From NCBI RefSeq assembly GCF_001593955.1, contig NZ_LTAZ01000013.1:248001-312000 (forward strand): DNA of 64,000 nt. Direction: 5' to 3'. Made by a program: the position numbers and the translations under genes. The first letter of the stretch is position 1; every line of letters begins with the position of its first letter. The DNA is from Halalkalicoccus paucihalophilus. GTDB lineage: Archaea; Halobacteriota; Halobacteria; Halobacteriales; Halalkalicoccaceae. This document shows positions 8,961 to 19,227 of this stretch, piece by piece. Under the pieces are notes generated by a model. That model saw nothing but the letters and a program-made list of their open reading frames with translations. It had not been told where the DNA came from and did no database searches.

Positions 8961-9071
8961 ATGCTCTGTATGCAGCATCTCATTTCTGCCATATTCTGAG
9001 TATTTCAACAGAGTACTGATTGTACCAGCTGCGACTGTGGCGTACGGACTCCCATCTTTTGACGTGGCCAG

Positions 9072-9256
9072 CCTTGTGCAACAATTCGCTTCTTGGATAC
9101 AGAGTGTTGCACAAGGTAGTCTCTCTTGAAGGGGAAACCACCTCTGTTTGTTCAACGGCTACGCTCCTCACCGCCAGCCGACAGCGTACGTATCTCTCGA
9201 TACTGCTGGGGGATGCCGTCTCGACAGCCCGGAGTTCGAATGCATCCGGATTCCGT
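9072..9256. repeat. ~185-bp dispersed repeat (copy 1) with TTGTGCAACA hairpin
   Basis: Copy 1 begins with the inverted pair CCTTGTGCAACA (9072-9083) and TGTTGCACAAGG (9105-9116). It continues through CGTACGTATCTCTCGATACTG, CCGTCTCGACAG and CCGGAGTTCGAATG to GGATTCCG (~9256). The same order of blocks, diverged, occurs at 63701-63878. Read on the minus strand both copies share a faint protein-like pattern (RNPxxFxLRxVETA), so this may be a decayed mobile element. Confidence 0.6.
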
Positions 9257-9506
9257 TGACGGGGTACAGTAAGGGGTCGTGGGTAGTCAGAGAGCTGCAT
9301 ATTGCGGTCCTTACTGAAGGGAGCTGCAACCATGTATTGATCACCGACTGCGTGGTTTGTTGGATTATGGAATGCGAGAACGACTGTTGCGGTCGCAAAC
9401 CCGATACCAGGGTCGACGTAGGTGCTCTAAAGAATACCCATCGCTCGTCGACGGACATGACACAGCTGATGCGCAATTCCGCTGTTATCGTAAAATTTGG
9501 CTCTGG

Positions 9507-9580
9507 TCAACCACCCCGCCCTGAACGCCTTCGGCGTCATCAGAACGCTCCGCGTTCTGAGTGGCTAACGAGACGCGAAG
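9507..9580 (-). mobile_element. IS200/IS605 right-end remnant (GGGGTGGTTGACC type)
   Basis: On the minus strand this carries the nested hairpins TTCTGATGACGCCGAAGGCG and GAACGC...GCGTTC followed by GGGCGGGGTGGTTGACC. It is nearly identical to the right-end half of the compact element at 24446-24590. Confidence 0.55.
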
Positions 9581-9794
9581 CGTCTCGTCAACGTCGTCGG
9601 TCCGTCCTTCGGGGCCGGTTGACGGCGGCCCGTCCCAAGCGAGGAACCAAACCGTCCCCGCACCGCAATATTGGTTCGGCACCCATTGCTGGGCTGTCTG
9701 AAGCCCGCCACAGGACTACATACGACGACGGGGCGGGCGATACTACCTGTTTCGCCCAACTTCGCCACGCGATTTCTCGCTACCGCCTGTTGAA

Positions 9795-9831
9795 AGAGAA
9801 GCTCCGCCGTTTACGGCCGGGAGGATGTCAC
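9795..9831 (+). mobile_element. Solo IS200/IS605 right end (GAGGATGTCAC type)
   Basis: GAAGCTCCGCCG-TTTA-CGGCCGGGAGGATGTCAC shows the same stem, TTTA-like loop and GAGGATGTCA terminus as the ends at 1233, 6546 and 22530. No tnpB is attached. Confidence 0.55.
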
Positions 9832-9946
9832 TAGCGCCTCTCAGAGACTGGAGATTAGTCTCGACCAGTGTGGATCACGAAGTCAGGTACGAAAACAGGG
9901 AAACCACTATCATGTCACTACTGGTAGTACACTGGACGGCATCTAA

Positions 9947-11320
9947 ATGGCTACCGAGTACGTCTTTATCAGCGATCTTCATATGGGCGGTGATGAGCAA
10001 CTCACTACACTCGATTTCGAGGACGAACTCGTCTCCTTTCTCGAAGGCCTGCGCAAGCGCGGTGGTGACGTCGAGTTGATCATCAACGGCGACGCCTTCG
10101 GTCTCTGGGAGTACGCGGAGGTCACCGGCTCCGATAAGCTCGAACGGGTGATCGAGGATCACCCTCGCGTCTTCGAACAGCTCCGCGCGACCGGCGAAGA
10201 GATCGACATCACGCTCATGCCGGGCAACCACGACTATGACCTTGCCTGTTACCCGTCCTACGTGAACCGGCTTGCGGAGTACAACCTGATCCTCGAGCCC
10301 GAGATCGTCCTCACCCGCGAGGTCGCTGACGGAACGGTTTGGATCGAGCACGGCCAGCAACACGACGCGAACAACCGCATGCCCGACTGGGGCAACCCGG
10401 ACGCGCTGCCGGTCGGCTACTTCGTCGTCCAGCGGATCGTCGCCGCCGCCGGGCGTTATTCCGAACACGCTAGAGGCGACTGGCTCCGCGACATCCAGTC
10501 GGTCGCGCCGATGGAGGAGATCCCACGTTGGCTGCTCTCGAACTACTTTTATCGGGAGATGAGCCCGCTCTTGCGGACGATCGTCGTTCCACTGTTGCTC
10601 TTTTTCAACATCACGATATTCTACCTAATCGGTACCGTCCTCGAGGCGATCGGACTCCTTCCGCCACATTTTTTCACCAACAACGCCCTGGTTCGGGCCC
10701 TCGGTGCTGCCGATTACGTTCTTGAGCTCATAATCGCCATCAACATCGTCATCATCGGCGTGTTACTCATGCTTGCGATTCCGCTCTGGCTCTTCAGGCG
10801 GGATCTGAGGCAAACCCTCGAACGCTTCGGCGTCATGCTGTCCGGGGTGCGGGTCGGCCAGGGTGACCAGCCGTTTCTGAACGCAGCCAAGGACGTCTTC
10901 GATTCACACCCCAACGTAGCCGTCTTCGTCTACGGACACACTCACCGCGCGTCGCTCACGAAATGGGGCGATCGCGTCGTCGTCAATACGGGAACATGGC
11001 TGAAGAAGCTCCAACACGTCGAAACGTGGTTCTCTCGGCTTCCCGGGCTCTACTATCCTTCGTTCCGGCTGAACTACTTTCGAATCGTTCCCGAGGGCGA
11101 TCAGATCGTCGTCGAGTACGAGCAGATCAAGACGAACCAGCCGCGGGACCTCACTTGGTTTCAACGACTGGTCGCGCGTAAACCGCCGGCGCCGACATCG
11201 ATTCCGGAACGCACGGTAGTCGATCCTGCAGGGACGCTCGAGCTTCCGGGCGGGGAGTCTGCCTCCGATTCCAAATCGACGACTGATGGCGAGCCAGAAC
11301 GCGACTCGATCACTCGGTGA
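9947..11320 (+). CDS. Membrane-anchored metallophosphoesterase
   Basis: A 457-aa calcineurin-like phosphoesterase with all metal-binding blocks: SDLHMGGDE (residues ~9-16), NGDAFG (~47-52), PGNHDYD (~91-97) and YGHTHRA (~329-335). The region between GNHD and GHTH contains two hydrophobic stretches (~207-237 and ~257-284), so membrane segments interrupt the catalytic domain and probably hold the active site against the membrane face. The nearest recognised relatives are LpxH-like UDP-diacylglucosamine hydrolases, but haloarchaea lack lipid A, so the substrate is unknown. The C-terminus is a polar, disordered tail. The stop TGA touches the right end of the adjacent IS element. Confidence 0.85.
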   Translation: MATEYVFISDLHMGGDEQLTTLDFEDELVSFLEGLRKRGGDVELIINGDAFGLWEYAEVTGSDKLERVIEDHPRVFEQLRATGEEIDITLMPGNHDYDLACYPSYVNRLAEYNLILEPEIVLTREVADGTVWIEHGQQHDANNRMPDWGNPDALPVGYFVVQRIVAAAGRYSEHARGDWLRDIQSVAPMEEIPRWLLSNYFYREMSPLLRTIVVPLLLFFNITIFYLIGTVLEAIGLLPPHFFTNNALVRALGAADYVLELIIAINIVIIGVLLMLAIPLWLFRRDLRQTLERFGVMLSGVRVGQGDQPFLNAAKDVFDSHPNVAVFVYGHTHRASLTKWGDRVVVNTGTWLKKLQHVETWFSRLPGLYYPSFRLNYFRIVPEGDQIVVEYEQIKTNQPRDLTWFQRLVARKPPAPTSIPERTVVDPAGTLELPGGESASDSKSTTDGEPERDSITR

Positions 11321-11331
11321 ACTACCATACC

Positions 11332-12573
11332 CTACTCGCTCACGGCTGACGCCGTTCGCTCCTTGAGGGTAGGGCTTCCTGTTTCCACGACGCGCTTTGC
11401 AGATACAGCCGTATCCACAGGGAGCGCAGTCTCCACAGGCGTTGATTCGGAGTATCCCACTCCTATATCTTCGATGCCGCGAGAAAGAATGTTCCACGCC
11501 GCGTTCGCATCTCTGTCCGCCTCAAATCCGCAGGCGGGACAGGAGTGTTCACGAACCCACAACGGTTTGTCAGTCGAAACGCCACATGACGTACACTCTT
11601 TAGTCGTCCCTCTCGGGTTGATCGCCACGAAGTGCGTCCCCTCTCGATTGCACTTGTATTCCAGTAGCGAGAGGAACGTCCGCCACGCGGCGGAGGCGGT
11701 ATTGCGGCTGTTCGACGGCGATTCTATCATCCCCTTGACGTTCAGGTCTTCGACTGCTACGAGGTCATACTCCCGAGCGTAGTACGCCGAGAGTTTGTGT
11801 AAGAAGTCGCGGCGCTTCCGTCGGAGGTCGGCGTGGCACTCCGCAACGCGCCGCCGTTGCTTCTCGTAGTTGTTCGACCCGTGCTGTTTGCGCGAGAGCT
11901 TCCGTTGCTCGCGCTCCAAGCGTTCACGTTCGTTCGAGAGGTCGAGCGACTCGACCGCCGTGCCGTCAGTGTCGTGGGCGTACTTGAGAATCCCTACGTC
12001 GATACCAACCACGTCGGTCAGTTCGTCGGGTTTCTCGGGTGGTTCGCGGTCCACTTCAACCCCGAAGGTGGCGAACCATTCGCCCGTCGGTTCCTTCTTA
12101 ACCGTGACCTGCTTGAGTGTCGCGTCGTCGGGGATGGCGCGGTGAAGCCGTATCGGTATGTCCGCAAGTTTCGAGAGTGACAGCACAGTCTGACCGCCCT
12201 TCTTGTCGAGCTTGAAGCCAGACTGACTGTACGTGAAACTGCGGAACTCGCGTGGCGGCTTCCACTTAAGTTGACCGACGCCGTAGCTCTCCTTGAGTCC
12301 GCCGAGTGATTTGACGTTCTGCTCGATTCGCATGACCGCAGTTTGCAGAACTGTCGAGTACACGTCCGAGAGACCATCCCACCAACCTTTCAGGGACGGT
12401 ATTTCGTCTTAGATGGACCGAACACGCTGATTGAGCGTACCTGCGTCCTCAGGGATTTGGTCAAAGCGGTAGAGAGCGTGATTGTACAGTTGCCTACAAA
12501 TGTCCCGGTGGCGGTCCAACTCCTCGCGGTGGGAGTCGGACGGCTTGAGACAGTACTTGTAGGCGTAGTACAT
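11332..12573 (-). pseudogene. tnpB: tnpB (IS200/IS605 RNA-guided nuclease) with one in-frame stop
   Basis: The full frame is 413 codons from ATG at 12573 (MYYAYKYCLK...), typical for haloarchaeal TnpB, but codon 55 is TAA (12409-12411) where related proteins usually have a Gln codon (VRSI-stop-DEIPSLKGWW). The rest is intact. In full-frame numbering the RuvC acidic residues are Asp192 (VVGIDVG), Glu275 (AVEDLN) and Asp355 (ADRDANAA), and a four-Cys zinc ribbon (CTSC...CPAC) lies at 327-348. A shorter product of 343 aa could start at the ATG at 12363, lacking the N-terminal helical region. A single-base nonsense change suggests recent inactivation or a sequencing error. Confidence 0.88.
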
Positions 12574-12576
12574 CCG

Positions 12577-12705
12577 TTACTCGTGTTCCTCGATATACTC
12601 GTCGAGTCGCTCGCGGATGAACGACGAGAGGTTCAGGTGGTGTTCCTGAACCCACTCGTGTTGGTCCTCTCGGAGTGTGATTGTGGTCCGCTTCACCGTA
12701 TGCAT
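12577..12705 (-). CDS. Small ribbon-helix-helix-like protein upstream of tnpB
   Basis: A 42-aa frame whose TAA is followed after 3 nt by the tnpB ATG, in the same reading frame. The sequence reads MHTVKRTTITLREDQHEWV, then LNLSSFIRERLDEYIEE. A beta-strand (KRTTITL) followed by two helices with SSFIRERL is the classic RHH/CopG layout. It sits inside the IS left end and would be co-transcribed with tnpB, suggesting an element-encoded repressor or antitoxin-like partner. That role is inference; a two-residue tail after the second helix makes it a minimal RHH. Confidence 0.65.
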   Translation of the reverse strand: MHTVKRTTITLREDQHEWVQEHHLNLSSFIRERLDEYIEEHE

Positions 12706-12886
12706 AGTATATACTCTATGCACGAAAACGTTGCGACTACGTGGGCCTGTGGGCCTGTAACCGTAGAGTGGATGAGAACTGTGCGTCGCTGTATCCCCCC
12801 CCCCCCCTACTCGCGCCTTCGGCGCTCGTTGAGGAAGGGGGCTTAGCGCCTACTTTCAGCTAAATGACCGAGCTGAGCGGATGAGC

Positions 12887-13492
12887 TTAGAGGTGGTACC
12901 AGTATTCCCACAGCAGTCGGACCTTGTACCGGAGCAACACTGCGAGTTGAAAGCCGACGTGGTGGTTCACCTTCCACGGCGGCCGGTCGCTCTCAGCGAT
13001 CACCCGGTTGATGAACGTGGCCATGGCTTCGCGGGTGGTATCATTGACCTCCTGTAACGTCACTACCGAGAGCTCATCGGTCAACTCTTCGCGGCGTTTC
13101 TCCGGGAGAACCAACGAGAGTGCCACACTGCTGACGGGGTCATGTCTCGCTCGAATAATTTCGATCCGGAAGTGAACCGGTTCGGAGACGACGATCCGCT
13201 CGCCTGTCTCATCGGCGCCGAGCATTGTCTGTTCTGTCTGGGTAGTCGTCGTCTTCTCGACAGTGTAATCGTAGCCGAGATCGTTGAGCACGCTGGTTGC
13301 GAGTTCCAAGAATCGATTGGGACTCAGGCCGCAGAACGCCCGCCACTCCGATCCGATGAGCAGCCCGATAACCTTCCAGAACATGATGGCATACGTGAGT
13401 GGTGGACCATCAATGCTGCGTAGGATCCCGATACGGTCGACCCGAAAGGATTCAGGATCAGTCGTCGTCGGTACCGACAGTGACACCGGCAT
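12887..13492 (-). CDS. Conserved hypothetical protein downstream of SSS symporter
   Basis: A 201-aa protein from the ATG at 13492, whose first 35 bp overlap the end of the symporter gene (MPVSLSVPTTTDPESF...); longer in-frame starts would run through the symporter in another frame. A central alpha/beta part contains LNDLGYDYTVEKTTTTQTEQ and VSEPVHFRIEIIRARHDPV, and the C-terminus is basic and aromatic (LLRYKVRLLWEYWYHL). No known domain is recognised. The overlap suggests co-translation with the symporter, so a role linked to that transport cluster is likely. Confidence 0.65.
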   Translation of the reverse strand: MPVSLSVPTTTDPESFRVDRIGILRSIDGPPLTYAIMFWKVIGLLIGSEWRAFCGLSPNRFLELATSVLNDLGYDYTVEKTTTTQTEQTMLGADETGERIVVSEPVHFRIEIIRARHDPVSSVALSLVLPEKRREELTDELSVVTLQEVNDTTREAMATFINRVIAESDRPPWKVNHHVGFQLAVLLRYKVRLLWEYWYHL

Positions 13493-14990
13493 TAGCTCCG
13501 GATTCGGGGACAATGGAGTCGCTGTGGAACGTCTGAAAGCCGACGAGCTCCTGGCCGGTCGGCTGCCGCGTCGCCAAGGAAACCACGAAGAACACAACAA
13601 TTCCGACCGGTACGGCAATCAGCGCCTCAGCGAACAGCGGGCCCATTACATCACCGAACAGCAAGGCCCCATACACCAGAAAGCCCGTGATCATGGCCGC
13701 GATAGCGCCCGGCTCGTTCGCGCGTTTCCACCATGTCCCGATCGCGACCGCGGGGAAGAGGCCGCTCGCGAGCCCGCCTGTCACTAGCGTCGTCATCGTG
13801 GCGATCAATCCCGGCGGATCAAGCGCAACCAGGGCCGTCGTCAGTGCGCCACCCCAGATGACGACCTGGCCTACGATAAGCTCCTGACGCTCGGAGAGAT
13901 CCCACTCAAGCGTCTTAGGAATATCGTGGCTGATGCTCGCGCTCAACGCGACCAGCAGCGCGTCGGTAGTTGACATAATCGCCGCGAGCAATCCGGCGGC
14001 GCCTAGTCCCTGAACGATTGGGCCGAAGTACTCAGCGAGGATCGCGTAGTAGAAGTAGTCCGGATTGGCGAGATTCGGTTCAACGGCCGTCGCAGCGCCG
14101 GCAACAATGTATGCCGAGAGACCGAATGTGGCAATGTAGAGCGGCACCATCCACATGAATCCTCGGCGTGCAGCTCTGTCGCTCTCGCTTGAGAGTATCC
14201 GCTGACCGAACTGCGGGAGCGATAACACTCCGAGGACCCATACTAGACCAATTCCGAGGTGGGTGATCCACGGCTGGTTCGATCCCGCAAACTCGGAGTT
14301 GGCCGCAAGCGCCGCCGACAGGGTCCCACTGACACCGCCAAACTCCAGTAGGATCAGCGGAATGGGGAATACCGAGAGAATCACCATCATGATTCCCTGG
14401 ATGAAGTCGGTCCAAGTGACCGCCCACATGCCCCCCAGCGAGACGTATAGCGCAAAGCCAATCGCAGCGATGATCACACCGAGACCGTAGCCGAGCTGTG
14501 GCAGGACGAAGTCCATTGTGATACCCCCCGCGGTCAGCTGCGGGATCATGTATGCCCAGGCGGCAATCGCGAAGATGAGCGCGCCGACCAAGCGCACTCG
14601 CTTGCTCTGGTAGCGCATCTGGAGGTAAGCTGGGACTGTGTAGACGCCTGCTCGGCGGATCGGTCCCGCTAGAAAGATCATCGTAAACAGCCCACCGGCG
14701 GCGACGGCAACAGCCACTAACATCCCAAAGCTTGCGCCGAAGGCGTAGGCGAATCCACCAATACCGAAGAAGGAGCCGGCACTCGCGAGCACCGCGTAGA
14801 ACGCAAACACCTGGGTGTAGGTTTTAATTTGTCCGCCGGCAATCCAAAAGTCGCCCGTCGACTGGCGCGAGCGCTTGAAGTAGTAGAGACCGATCCCAAC
14901 AACGACCGCGAAGTACGCGATGATCACTGCGACTGCTAGTGGACCGCTCTCGACCTCAGGGGTTACTCCCCCTTGCAATATCACCCTCAT
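13458..14990 (-). CDS. Sodium:solute symporter (SSS family)
   Basis: A 510-aa integral membrane protein with about 13 hydrophobic segments. Family features are YFKRSRQSTGDFWIAGG after TM1, a glycine-rich ASAGSFFGIGGFAYAFG in TM2 and AAIMSTTDALLVALSASISHDIPK around TM9, which matches the SSS signature 'AA.MSS.DS.L...S....D'. It takes up an organic solute with Na+; the substrate cannot be read from sequence. Upstream by 5 nt is a small membrane protein gene and downstream an overlapping hypothetical gene, giving a three-gene operon on the minus strand. Confidence 0.9.
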   Translation of the reverse strand: MRVILQGGVTPEVESGPLAVAVIIAYFAVVVGIGLYYFKRSRQSTGDFWIAGGQIKTYTQVFAFYAVLASAGSFFGIGGFAYAFGASFGMLVAVAVAAGGLFTMIFLAGPIRRAGVYTVPAYLQMRYQSKRVRLVGALIFAIAAWAYMIPQLTAGGITMDFVLPQLGYGLGVIIAAIGFALYVSLGGMWAVTWTDFIQGIMMVILSVFPIPLILLEFGGVSGTLSAALAANSEFAGSNQPWITHLGIGLVWVLGVLSLPQFGQRILSSESDRAARRGFMWMVPLYIATFGLSAYIVAGAATAVEPNLANPDYFYYAILAEYFGPIVQGLGAAGLLAAIMSTTDALLVALSASISHDIPKTLEWDLSERQELIVGQVVIWGGALTTALVALDPPGLIATMTTLVTGGLASGLFPAVAIGTWWKRANEPGAIAAMITGFLVYGALLFGDVMGPLFAEALIAVPVGIVVFFVVSLATRQPTGQELVGFQTFHSDSIVPESGANAGVTVGTDDD

Positions 14991-14995
14991 GAAGA

Positions 14996-15307
14996 TTATT
15001 GCTCACCTGTTATGGCCTGGTTGCGCCCAATCCAGTACTCGTAGACGAAACCAAGGACACCAACGACGAGTCCCCACGCTGCAACAGTGTAAGTCATGAG
15101 GGTCACGCCTCCACCGCCGCCATCGAGACCTGGCATGATCCCACCGAATAGAACGAATGAGACAGCTACTAGGAGGCTGATGACGATTGTTGGTTTATAC
15201 CCCGCTGTCAGATTGATATTTACGTCTTCGTATGAGATCGATTGCACTCTTGTCGTGTCCTCACCGTTTTCCGTGGTTTCGAGTGTTGACACTCTTCCAG
15301 ATGCCAT
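14996..15307 (-). CDS. Small two-TM partner protein of the SSS symporter
   Basis: A 103-aa protein from the ATG at 15307; the more upstream ATG at 15322 lies too close to the TATA-like box at 15334-15344. It has a polar N-terminus of ~35 residues, then two membrane segments (TIVISLLVAVSFVLFGGIMPGL and YTVAAWGLVVGVLGFVYEYWIG) joined by a Gly-rich turn. It ends 5 nt before the symporter start. Small membrane subunits paired with SSS transporters recur at 36238 and 41207, so an accessory-subunit role is likely but inferred. Confidence 0.75.
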   Translation of the reverse strand: MASGRVSTLETTENGEDTTRVQSISYEDVNINLTAGYKPTIVISLLVAVSFVLFGGIMPGLDGGGGGVTLMTYTVAAWGLVVGVLGFVYEYWIGRNQAITGEQ

Positions 15308-15333
15308 GATAATTGAGGACATACAGGGGAGGG

Positions 15334-15344
15334 TAAATAAAACC
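15334..15344 (-). promoter_or_regulatory. TATA-like box for the symporter operon
   Basis: GTTTTATTTAC on the minus strand is centred ~31 nt upstream of the ATG at 15307, the expected distance for a leaderless haloarchaeal transcript, and it decides that start. Confidence 0.5.
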
Positions 15345-15588
15345 CCCCGGTGAAGTTCACATAACCAGCAAGAGAGGACACTGAAGGCAGATTTACAGTG
15401 CTATACTATTTATTCTCACGAAGCACGCGCGAGCACGGACCGCTCTTCGTAGTCTCTGTAATCCGGTTTCGGTCTCAAGCCAAAGGACTGTACGCTGAGA
15501 GGTTAGTGATCCCGAATATAAACACAAAGCGAGCCATAACTGTATTTATGACGCAATAAGAAGAATAGAATAGATTGAAACGGTTAGA

Positions 15589-16188
15589 CACCCCGGGTTG
15601 CCGCTGTAAACTACCAATAACACCGACGAAGAGACGTCTTATCGGAATAAGAGGTGAGAGACCTATCAATCACAGAGATGCACCCCCAATTGCCGCTGTA
15701 AAAGCGAATAGAATCTTGAGGTGAACACCGCCACCCCGGAATGCCGCTGTAAGATTGCTCGACCATACCCAAGCAGAAGTCCTTGTCAATTGCTGATGCT
15801 CAGGAACAATTCGGATTGATTATGTTTCAGTACCTTTATTACCAATAACGTTATTCGTTACCGTGCTACACTTTTGTCTAATTGAGATGGCAATCGCTTT
15901 TGCCATCGAAAAGCCGAACAAGTGGTCTCCATCCAATGGCGGTTATCCCTCTTATTTACCGTCGTAGCGTGACTATTCCAGTCGCTACTCCGCTCAACCT
16001 TGGTTTCAGGTGGGGTCACCATCTCATTCCTTACAGCGGCATTCCGGGGTGTGAGGATCCTCTATTTTTACAGCGGCAATGAGGGGTTCTTAGCTCCGTT
16101 CCCGCTATACTCTTCTCTTAACCCTCACAACGGGCGTTTTTCATTCTTATGGAAAACACATAATGTCTTACAGCGGCATTGTAGTGGC
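15589..16188. other. Predicted replication origin with six inverted ORB-like repeats
   Basis: Three copies of a 22-bp motif with core TGCCGCTGTAA(A/G) preceded by CACCCC lie at 15589-15610, 15681-15702 and 15732-15753. Three copies in the opposite orientation, core (C/T)TTACAGCGGCA, lie at 16030-16051, 16067-16088 and 16167-16188. The innermost pair (15732 and 16030) are perfect 22-bp reverse complements. Four of the six have a CCCC/GGGG run on the outer side, like the G-string of haloarchaeal origin recognition boxes. Between the arrays is AT-rich DNA (about 15780-15890) with ATAACGTTAT, a plausible unwinding element. The orc1/cdc6 gene starts 36 bp to the right. Origin function is inferred from this layout. 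Confidence 0.85.
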
Positions 16189-16223
16189 GAAGATTCATAC
16201 TCTGTCCCTGAGAAAACCCCTCT

Positions 16224-17420
16224 ATGGGCGAGTCAAAATCATTCTTCGGCGATCCTGATCCGATCTTCGCCGACAAAGAGCTTCTTCGGGTTAGTCACCT
16301 TCCTGAAGGGGATCGAATTATCGGTCGAGATGACGAACTCCAAAGCCTTGCGAAAGCGATCAAGGACGCACAACGCGGTGGAACACCGAATAATGTCCTA
16401 ATTTATGGGAAAACAGGAACTGGAAAGAGTCTTTGTTCGAAGTACATCACACGCGATCTCGCCGAGGCTGCTGCCGAAAATGGTGTGCAAGTTGGTATCG
16501 CGTACGTTGATTGCTTCCAGGAGTCGACTGAAACACAGACAGTTCGAACTATCGCTGAATCGTTCAACGATCCCGACGAGACGGATATCACCGTTCCCCA
16601 CTCGGGTGTGAGTACATCCAATTACTATCGGCGACTCTGGAAAATCCTCGATGCTCGCTTAGACGTAGGAATCGTCATTCTTGACGAGATCGACAAACTC
16701 GAGAACGATAACGTGTTAATGCAACTCTCGCGTGCAGCAGAGGCAGGCAAAGTCAACAACTCAACACTCGGCATCATTGGGATCAGCAACAAGATCCGGT
16801 ACAAAGACACATTGAACGAGCGCGTAAAATCGAGTCTTTCCGAGCGTGACTTCGTGTTCCCTCCGTACGATGCCTCCCAACTCCAAGCGATCCTTCGATC
16901 GCGGGCAGACGCCTTCCGTGAGGATGTACTCAATGAAGACGTGATTCCGAAAGTCGCAGCACTCGCTGCCCGTGAACATGGTGACGCACGGAAAGCGATC
17001 GATATTCTCCGTTACGCTGGTGAAATCACTGACGAACATGGCGATGATTCCGTTAGTGTTGACTATGTCGATGAAGCGCACGATCGCGAAGAACAAGCTC
17101 GACTCTCGGAACTTATCTCGAAACAGCCGACACACTCGAAGTACCTCATGCTAGCGCTTGCGCTGCGAATGCAGGAAGCCGCTGAGGACGAGCCGACGAT
17201 TCCTTCGAAACAGATCCATTCTGCCTATCAAATCGTCTGTGAACGTGAGGGAGCTGAGCCACTAAAGATACGCCGAGTTCGAGATCTTCTCTCCGAACTC
17301 GCGTTTCTCTCACTTATTGAGCAAGAGCGAAAGGGACGAGGAAAAGGAAAAGGAGCGCACACTGTCAATGAACTCGTTGACGATCCCGAAATTGTCGTTG
17401 AAGCCTGCCGGTCTGCCTGA
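16224..17420 (+). CDS. orc1/cdc6: Orc1/Cdc6 replication initiator AAA+ ATPase
   Basis: A 398-aa initiator. The AAA+ core has Walker A GKTGTGKS (residues 62-69), Walker B VILDEIDKL with Asp154-Glu155, sensor-1 in LGIIGISNKI, and an initiator-specific FPPYDASQLQAIL segment. The sensor-2 region is GDARKAIDILRYAG. The C-terminal ~110 residues form the winged-helix DNA-binding domain (HSKYLMLALALRMQE...). It directly follows the predicted ORB array, the usual gene order for haloarchaeal orc-adjacent origins, so it probably binds those repeats. Haloarchaea encode many Orc paralogues, so a numbered name is not assigned. Confidence 0.96.
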   Translation: MGESKSFFGDPDPIFADKELLRVSHLPEGDRIIGRDDELQSLAKAIKDAQRGGTPNNVLIYGKTGTGKSLCSKYITRDLAEAAAENGVQVGIAYVDCFQESTETQTVRTIAESFNDPDETDITVPHSGVSTSNYYRRLWKILDARLDVGIVILDEIDKLENDNVLMQLSRAAEAGKVNNSTLGIIGISNKIRYKDTLNERVKSSLSERDFVFPPYDASQLQAILRSRADAFREDVLNEDVIPKVAALAAREHGDARKAIDILRYAGEITDEHGDDSVSVDYVDEAHDREEQARLSELISKQPTHSKYLMLALALRMQEAAEDEPTIPSKQIHSAYQIVCEREGAEPLKIRRVRDLLSELAFLSLIEQERKGRGKGKGAHTVNELVDDPEIVVEACRSA

Positions 17421-17480
17421 ATCCACTCGTTTCTTTCGCGCACTGGGAAACTCTTCCCGGTACTGTAGCTCTTCACATTA

Positions 17481-17522
17481 CCTTGTGCAACAACGATATC
17501 AAAATCGATCCGTTGCACAAGG
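17481..17522. repeat. CCTTGTGCAAC / GTTGCACAAGG hairpin, copy 2
   Basis: Perfect 11-bp arms (17481-17491 and 17512-17522) flank a 20-nt spacer that is not conserved with the other copies. It lies 60 nt after the orc1/cdc6 stop codon. The rest of the 17421-17721 gap shows no gene. Confidence 0.6.
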
Positions 17523-17721
17523 GTTCTGCCCCTGATGACTTATTCACTAAATCTGGAATTCGCCGCTTAAGCCGGTTGTTAACGATGATTCAATCAATAG
17601 AAATCACTCAGTTATTAAAGTTACCGAGCAAGACTCATCTCAAAGTAGATAATAGTCCCTCCGACGTGTTGATGGCGACCGTCCATAATCACTAACTCGA
17701 CTGGCAGTAGCGTACTGACTA

Positions 17722-19227
17722 ATGGATATCCTTGTGGGTGTCGACGCCGGTACATCACTGATCAAAGCGATCGCTATTACGCCGGCTGGAAGTGAGATAG
17801 CACTGGCTACGCGATCTCTTTCGACTGATCATCCAGAGCCCCGATGGGCCCAACAGAATATGAACACTGTCTGGGAGCAGGCCGCTGGCTGTCTTGGGGA
17901 TCTCCTCGAGCAGCTTCCACGTGATGGGACGATTCTTGGTGTGAGCATCGCAGGCCAAGGTGATGGCTGTTGGCTGATCGATAGCGATGGTGAGCCCGTT
18001 CGCGATGCTATTCTCTGGTCGGATAGTCGAGCCAGCGAGTATATCGATCAGTGGCGCACTGATGGGACGCTTGAAGAAATTGAGTACATCTGTGGGTCAG
18101 AACTCTTTCCGGGTACTGTACTCCCGCTTCTCGCGTGGTTGTCCGATGAACAGTCCCACTACCTTGAGACGGCAGCGACGCTCTTGTTCTGCAAGGATTG
18201 GCTCAGCTACAAGCTAACTGGAGAGCGAACGACGGATCTGAGCGATGCCTCGCTACCACTACTGGACATTTACGAACAGTCGTATTCGGATGCCGTCTGG
18301 GAGACAACAGGCTTAGCCGAGTACATGCACCTTCGGCCGAACCTGCAGCCGGCGGGGTCTGTTGTTGGGTCGATAACGGAACCTGCGGCAGCGAGGACTG
18401 GCATTCCAGTTGGAACGCCGGTTGTAATGGGACTGTTCGATGTCGCTGCATCCGCCATTGGATGTGGTGCCGTCTCCGAAGGTGATTCGGTTTCTTCGAT
18501 CGGGACCTCAGTGGTGAACCAATCACTGGCATCGACACCACGCGTCGATTCGACGACGATCCAGGTCGCTCTATGGGAAGACCTCTATACAGAGGCGGTT
18601 GGCTCAAATGCAGGTACTCAGAGTATCGAGTGGGTACGCAACGAGATTGTCGATAAGGGCAACGCTAGGTATTCGGATCTGGAGACGGCTGCACAATCGG
18701 TGCCGGTGGGGGCAGACGATCTTCTGTATATCCCGTATCTTAGTCCAACTGGCGAGCGAGGTCCGTTCGTCGATCCGAATGCACGAGCACAGTTGTTTGG
18801 CCTGGAACCATCGCATACGACCGCTCATATCGTTCGAGCGGTGTACGAAGGGCTTGCATTGGCACTTCGAGATTGTTACGAGGCGATTCCGAATACGGTC
18901 TCACAGCTTTACGTAACCGGTGGGCCCACTCGGTCGACGTTTTGGAATCAACTCGTCGCGGACTGCATGGGCGTCGAGATCCTCGTTCCGAATAGTGCCG
19001 AACCGACTGCAGTTGGCACAGCGGTGCTTGCAGGAGTCGGTACTGACTGCTATTCGGATCCTACAGTTGGTGCGAGTCAGGTTCTGTCGGCTCCGGATCG
19101 GTATCAGCCGACTACTGCTGTGACCGAAACGTATGATCTACTTTACGAGCAGTATGTACAGATCCGCTCACGTATGACGGAAATTTGGGCGCTTCACGCT
19201 GAGACCCGATCGCAGCTGTCTGAATGA
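17722..19227 (+). CDS. FGGY-family carbohydrate kinase
   Basis: A 501-aa cytoplasmic sugar or polyol kinase. The N-terminal actin-like domain has the phosphate-1 loop GVDAGTSLIKA (residues ~5-15) and GQGDGCWLID, with the sugar-contact region AILWSDSRASEY. The C-terminal domain has GLFDVAASAIG, SSIGTSVVNQ (phosphate-2 type) and YVTGGPTRSTFWNQLVADCMG (the adenosine FGGY signature). Relatives phosphorylate xylulose, erythritol or other ketoses and alditols; the substrate cannot be assigned. It is a single gene with its own upstream space and no sugar transporter adjacent. Confidence 0.88.
   Translation: MDILVGVDAGTSLIKAIAITPAGSEIALATRSLSTDHPEPRWAQQNMNTVWEQAAGCLGDLLEQLPRDGTILGVSIAGQGDGCWLIDSDGEPVRDAILWSDSRASEYIDQWRTDGTLEEIEYICGSELFPGTVLPLLAWLSDEQSHYLETAATLLFCKDWLSYKLTGERTTDLSDASLPLLDIYEQSYSDAVWETTGLAEYMHLRPNLQPAGSVVGSITEPAAARTGIPVGTPVVMGLFDVAASAIGCGAVSEGDSVSSIGTSVVNQSLASTPRVDSTTIQVALWEDLYTEAVGSNAGTQSIEWVRNEIVDKGNARYSDLETAAQSVPVGADDLLYIPYLSPTGERGPFVDPNARAQLFGLEPSHTTAHIVRAVYEGLALALRDCYEAIPNTVSQLYVTGGPTRSTFWNQLVADCMGVEILVPNSAEPTAVGTAVLAGVGTDCYSDPTVGASQVLSAPDRYQPTTAVTETYDLLYEQYVQIRSRMTEIWALHAETRSQLSE

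Follow-up and report, generated by a model that had tools for sequence, protein, structure and literature searches.

In Halalkalicoccus paucihalophilus, the gene for an Orc1/Cdc6 initiator protein is preceded by an intergenic region carrying inverted repeats. The question raised by this locus is whether the region is a replication origin with a repeat of its own and, if so, how it relates to the haloarchaeal origins already described. The window is the whole stretch of DNA that was analysed, 64,000 nt in length (positions 248001–312000 of contig C13), from a draft genome of 23 contigs and 3,980,410 bases that is 94.55% complete.

Repeat arrays and the adjoining initiator gene

Between positions 15589 and 16188 of the window, upstream of orc1/cdc6, six exact copies of the core TTACAGCGGCA are arranged as two inverted arrays of three. 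The features of the region are listed below.

15589–15610, minus strand: ORB 1 (outer left), core at 15599–15609, outer GGGG
15681–15702, minus strand: ORB 2 (left), core at 15691–15701, outer G run of five
15732–15753, minus strand: ORB 3 (inner left), core at 15742–15752, perfect inverted repeat of ORB 4
15780–15880, no strand: AT-rich part between the inner ORBs with low G+C content, candidate duplex-unwinding element
15835–15917, no strand: conserved central block (TTTAT ... TACCGT ... TTTTG ...), alignable in relatives
15886–15907, no strand: putative central dyad, midway between the inner ORBs, with arms at 15886–15892 and 15901–15907 that appear to covary between species
16004–16013, plus strand: short element TTTC..TGG immediately inward of ORB 4, conserved in part according to the alignment consensus line
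16030–16051, plus strand: ORB 4 (inner right), core at 16031–16041, perfect inverted repeat of ORB 3
16068–16087, plus strand: ORB 5, core at 16068–16078, outer GGGG
16168–16188, plus strand: ORB 6, promoter-proximal, at −56 from the ATG, exact core at 16168–16178 without a G run
16193–16199, plus strand: TATA-like ATTCATA, identified by eye about 30 bp upstream of the orc start codon and partly conserved in the alignment
16224–17420, plus strand: orc1/cdc6 initiator gene, 398 aa, with AAA+, Cdc6 lid and C-terminal winged helix

These six are the only exact copies of the core in the whole draft genome, in which a reversed control pattern occurs once. In shuffled versions of the window, with up to one mismatch allowed, a mean of 0.47 matches to the core was obtained, and six were reached in none of 100 shuffles. 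The innermost ORBs form a 22 bp inverted repeat with 100% complementarity. An outward GGGG accompanies five of the six copies and is absent from the copy nearest the orc gene, which ends 35–36 bases before the ATG at 16224, depending on the choice of copy end. The first-pass annotation had described six repeats in two inverted arrays of three beside orc1/cdc6, perfect 22 bp innermost repeats, GGGG outside most copies and a distance of 36 bp to the gene, all of which was borne out. It had also described the centre as AT-rich, which is right to a modest degree: the G+C content per 60 bp is 32–33% at 15800–15879, the lowest part between the inner ORBs, and the DNA just outside the left array (15520–15579) is equally AT-rich, at 32%.

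Haloarchaeal origins adjacent to orc1/cdc6 are recognized by at least two inverted ORB repeats flanking an AT-rich element, and by a position in an intergenic region directly adjoining a full-length orc1/cdc6 gene. Three copies on each side are present here, and the adjoining gene is full length, encoding both the AAA+ domain and the winged helix. Its product matches the Pfam families Cdc6_lid (1e-22) and Cdc6_C (1.2e-18) and the NCBIfam model TIGR02928 (410.7 bits, cut-off 181.3), and 2qby and 2v1u are relatives of solved structure. With a threshold of E≤1e-150, which admits relatives down to about 58% identity, an Orc is encoded in 73 of the 392 genomes of the order, in 25 of its 95 genera. 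Within the source genus, the orthologue is found in three of seven genomes, the source included, and one of the four others is just 71% complete.

Conservation of the repeat with the initiator

For each relative, the comparison covered the sequence preceding orc, to a length of at most 1100 bp. At an Orc identity of at least 79.5%, it held 27 loci with 21 distinct upstream sequences, including the window, from family groups f1, f4, f5, f6 and f13. Locus L081, which stands at the start of the pHH126 record with no upstream sequence, was left out, and its origin, taken from the record end (L072), is the same as L097. Orc identity to the window ranges from 80 to 93% across this family, and is 81% for the intact Haloarcula orthologues. 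All 21 distinct origins, from five haloarchaeal families, carry exact TTACAGCGGCA in three to seven copies and in both orientations; the first-pass annotation would have given up its reading had the repeat been missing beside orthologous orc genes. The layout is conserved as well. The gap between the inner ORBs is 272–291 bp in 20 of the 21 origins (335 bp in L053), the last ORB copy lies at −55 to −57 in every one (with its first base changed in L055), and the 60 bp of lowest G+C content within the upstream 700 bp falls at or between the inner ORBs in 19, the exceptions being L068 and L069. An outward GGGG is found at 82 of the 104 exact copies in these origins.

Among more distant relatives, the core is kept in both loci with 71–72% Orc identity, and all six at 68–69% have mainly TTACATCGGCA. 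The 17 loci at 59–65% carry TTACAGCGGCA or ATACAGCGGCA, the copies found in L098 and L101 being all one-directional, and TCACTGGAA appears instead in two loci below these (L078 and L062, 58–59%). There is one clear loss, in Halorubrum halophilum B8 (L060, 75% Orc identity), in which a single, promoter-proximal copy is left and an IS605-type element replaces the rest; the origin looks to have been destroyed by this insertion. The transposase gene, with OrfB and TNB domains, occupies L060:1–1386, upstream of the orc orthologue. The window itself has a gene at 11332–12363, 3.2 kb to the left of the repeat arrays, whose 343 aa product is TnpB-like and belongs to the IS605/OrfB family.

Repeat types are clustered on the Orc tree. 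On a tree built by a quick method, with long branches flagged, the repeat labels of 69 Orcs require 11 changes, as against 40.2 in shuffles, none of 200 being as low; eight Orcs had no label and four had weak labels. The TTACAGCGGCA label alone requires three changes, and the TTACAGCGGCA group is not one clade. Fixed differences between the Orcs of clades with different ORB types were also catalogued. The linkage of ORB sequence to Orc family is a further mark of haloarchaeal origins. Together, this clustering and the conservation of the ORBs with orthologous Orcs in several families support the first-pass reading of the anatomy as a replication origin with its own ORB. The graded Orc–ORB series TTACAGCGGCA, TTACATCGGCA, ATACAGCGGCA, ACAGCGGAAAC and TCACYGGAA could be used to test how Orc1/Cdc6 reads an origin.

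The central block and the promoter-proximal ORB

The interest of the finding lies in two conserved details, the central block with its dyad and the form of the ORB closest to the orc promoter. The conservation of the block is clear. It can be aligned in all 21 distinct origins and in the two relatives at 71–72% Orc identity, with a mean column identity of 73%, and a strict pattern for its left half matches 15 of the 21 origins and both relatives, and no fetched locus outside the family. The case for a covarying dyad in the centre is suggestive but not proven. In the alignment, 82.1% of the dyad cells are paired, versus 20.5–58.2% in six slid versions, and 12 cells show both-sided changes, versus 3.1 in shuffles, with none of 500 as high. 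These changes fall in four of the seven pairs, a number reached by 40 of the 500 shuffles; the control slid by −3 has 13 both-sided cells in three pairs, 58.2% of its cells being paired, and most of the aligned pairs are broken in the Haloarcula rows. Among origins with inner gaps of 250–300 bp, 11 of the 18 sequence clusters, representing 32 of 43 origins, have their best dyad at 0.45–0.60 of the gap. Taken singly, the dyads reach p<0.05 in just four of the 18 clusters, one of the four being off-centre, and a mismatch-tolerant score places the best dyad at 0.38 in the L026 and L070 clusters.

A reading of the central block as a non-coding RNA was rejected: positions 15300–16300 had no Rfam match at E≤1, and RNAalifold gave no consensus structure for 23 sequences. 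Single-sequence folds of the block had z-scores of −1.5 and −1.8 for the two window strands, −0.7 for L026 and −3.2 for L092, and the dyad was kept as a DNA feature. In two other loci, L104 and L106, whose contigs measure 3.9 and 4.3 Mb, the inner ORBs enclose copies of ATTGGACG in alternating, inverted orientation, perhaps as a denser central dyad.

The ORB nearest the orc promoter keeps its core without the G run, and this is a rule of the family. In origins with an Orc identity of at least 79.5%, GGGG is present in one of 21 promoter-proximal copies versus 81 of 84 others; at 71–75% identity the counts are 0 of 3 and 8 of 11, and at 58–65% identity they are 0 of 9 and 76 of 93. The clade at 68–69% is an exception, with GGGG in two of three proximal copies and 12 of 17 others. 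Copies were taken as proximal at less than 70 bp from the start, so that those at −70 to −72 count among the others; the one of these with GGGG is the L098 copy at −72, just past the cut-off. The G-string is reported to be read by the AAA+ domain of the initiator (PMC3936714). To regard GGTG as a dead G-string proved too strong, since many ORBs of a sister clade, whose cores read TCACYGGAA, are followed by GGTG; the change in the G run may therefore mean weaker, rather than absent, binding.

In the window, ORB 6 ends about 5 bp before the TATA-like site, suggesting autoregulation of orc. By analogy, the ORB next to the orc promoter would most likely serve feedback control of orc, the alternative being that the promoter itself constrains the sequence of this copy. 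Neither a proximal ORB without a G run nor a central covarying dyad was found in the article text searched. Both details are targets for asking what lies between ORBs and how the supply of an archaeal initiator is controlled.

Replicon setting, proposed function and known origins

We infer that the replicon carrying the window origin is a megaplasmid. Seventeen 20 kb stretches of C13 have 50–64% G+C (55% together) and three stretches of C4 have 64%; no tRNA gene is found in 404 of the 429 kb of C13, and one is found in 60 kb of C4. Six genomes with no more than six contigs each (G003, G040, G057, G109, G130 and G351) have the orthologue on a contig of 142–489 kb. A plasmid-only collection, from which no proportion can be derived, has orthologues on named plasmids from Halobellus, Halorubrum and Haloarcula. 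Flanking genes change between genera, the Haloarcula records having in common an upstream N-6 methylase gene and a PadR gene. Over 404 of the 429 kb of C13, the cumulative GC skew reaches its minimum near 12 kb and its maximum near 341 kb, with no extremum at 264 kb, the position of the origin. Within window positions 9001–18000, the skew is negative at about 9–17 kb and then positive, a local dip around the origin rather than a contig-wide extremum. A search of viral contigs with peptide patterns gave no match. Two further Orc loci of the draft genome were noted. The one on C13 (413044–417207) encodes a second full-length Orc of 31% identity and is possibly a second candidate origin of the replicon. 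The other, on C12 (176655–180851), has a different ORB-like repeat, with 9-mers around CATTTGAAAT up to six times upstream of an Orc of 40% identity.

Judged from its sequence, the region with high probability combines a replication origin of a haloarchaeal megaplasmid with the gene for its initiator, active and dormant forms taken together, and function as an origin is very likely. In the proposed mechanism, the Orc1/Cdc6 protein (16224–17420) would bind its own ORBs, through the TTACAGCGGCA core and the outward GGGG, on both sides of the centre; the AT-rich centre would then melt and MCM would be recruited, giving bidirectional replication. Orc binding, melting, MCM loading and autoregulation are expected here by analogy with the family. 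Individual origins of H. hispanica are reported to depend on their adjacent cdc6 genes, with G-strings essential at oriC1 (PMC3936714). The sole family member for which a test was found in print, H. hispanica oriC5-cdc6H, with its split Orc, had no ARS activity.

Such an origin could be well built and able to fire, and nevertheless silent in the window strain as another origin on the replicon is used. Dormancy of this kind, a special case of the preferred reading, is documented for haloarchaeal origins in Hfx. mediterranei (PMC4595724), and it is suggested here by two observations: C13 encodes at least one other full-length Orc (414544–415707), with its own repeated 9-mers upstream, and, among 16 plasmid records fetched, the 12 that were examined (five with an Orc of at least 79.5% identity and seven with one of 59–69%) all have at least two Cdc6_lid matches, the window-type Orc being the sole such protein in none. 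That several families have maintained the ORBs, their spacing and the Orc implies regular use somewhere, without indicating which origin fires in the window strain, and we consider dormancy possible but not probable.

A mainly regulatory array, in which Orc sites would autoregulate the gene or titrate its product without initiation, is improbable. It would fit the constant spacing between one ORB copy and the start of orc, and it has a precedent in the ORB-rich region downstream of H. hispanica cdc6E, described as a negative, probably titrating element (PMC3936714). Titration, however, would have no need of a pair of inverted arrays whose conserved spacing encloses an AT-rich centre and a conserved block, and other haloarchaeal ori–cdc6 regions with inverted ORBs do have ARS activity, as reported for five of the seven predicted origins of H. 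hispanica, oriC5-cdc6H being among the two inactive ones (PMC3528665). That the repeats serve a plasmid partition protein or a transcription factor, and are not Orc sites at all, is very improbable: their status as Orc sites is a prediction from sequence, but they follow the ORB plan of a core with an outward G-string, and their types cluster on the Orc tree although the flanking genes change between genera. The preferred reading is an origin with its own initiator, firing or dormant.

The central block is conserved, is not an ORB and lies halfway between the inner ORBs; by position it resembles the ucm, an element in the DUE of Sulfolobus oriC1 that is reported to be needed for oriC1 activity and to be bound by UBP (PMC12141716). 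The likeness is one of position: the ucm comes from archaea far removed from the haloarchaea, and monomeric UBP binds it, whereas the window element is a dyad. A doubtful conjecture takes in both details of the locus. The central dyad, kept by compensatory change while its sequence turned over between clades, would be the haloarchaeal counterpart of the ucm, serving as spacer or bridge at the site of loading of the two MCM hexamers; and the proximal ORB would keep its core and give up the AAA+-contacted G-string half, such that Orc bound there would repress orc and start no replication.

The general plan of the region is that of the origins predicted in 15 haloarchaea by Wu et al. (2012) from inverted G-string ORBs beside orc genes, with ORBs specific to Orc families (PMC3528665): a position upstream of orc, inverted ORBs with G-strings, an AT-rich centre and an origin-specific repeat. 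The window core differs from, and is recognizably related to, the one ORB spelled out in the text of that paper (TAACAGCGGAAAC...). A literature search for the motif letters matched 858 papers with at least one string, and the 20 matches listed have titles not about archaea. In Natrialbaceae, an origin beside an Orc of about 60% identity has mainly the core ATACAGCGGCA, a G-string and a promoter-proximal copy without GGGG (eight loci: plasmids L075–L077, and L028, L029 and L104–L106, probably of the same family). It differs from the window in the first core base and in its lopsided arrays, with one left copy, and in L029 and L104–L106 it lies on contigs of 2.0–4.3 Mb.

The closest known system is oriC5-cdc6H of the H. 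hispanica minichromosome (pHH126 in strain N601), which has an orthologous initiator and the same ORB core and layout. The first-pass annotation had called the ORB distinctive; this is so within the genome, and the repeat is not a new class, since it belongs to the oriC5-cdc6H family. In G130, whose contig C1 measures 488,918 bp, the window Orc orthologue is split, with residues 1–296 at 85% identity and residues 290–398 at 67%, about 123 kb apart, and the upstream 1100 bp are identical to pHH126, which is related to the 489 kb minichromosome (PMC4441112). Wu et al. (2014), who also aligned Cdc6H of H. amylolytica and H. sinaiiensis, explained the inactivity of oriC5-cdc6H by loss of the Cdc6H winged helix, which is encoded as HAH_4250 (Cdc6H_C) about 123 kb away (PMC4441112). 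Because the split in G130 matches Cdc6H and Cdc6H_C and the upstream DNA is that of pHH126, the window holds the intact form of the family. The inactivity of the H. hispanica origin is probably due to the division of its initiator in two. Four exact copies in oriC5-cdc6H (L097/L072), in the order −−++, lie at −558, −485, −195 and −56, and four of the six window ORBs have similar positions (−533, −482, −193 and −56); the H. hispanica Orc lacks its winged helix, whereas the window has an intact Orc and six ORBs. The window region would thus be an orc1/cdc6-linked haloarchaeal origin of a known kind, related to one predicted in 2012. The family had been studied in a single model strain, in which the origin is broken, and intact copies are present in five haloarchaeal families.
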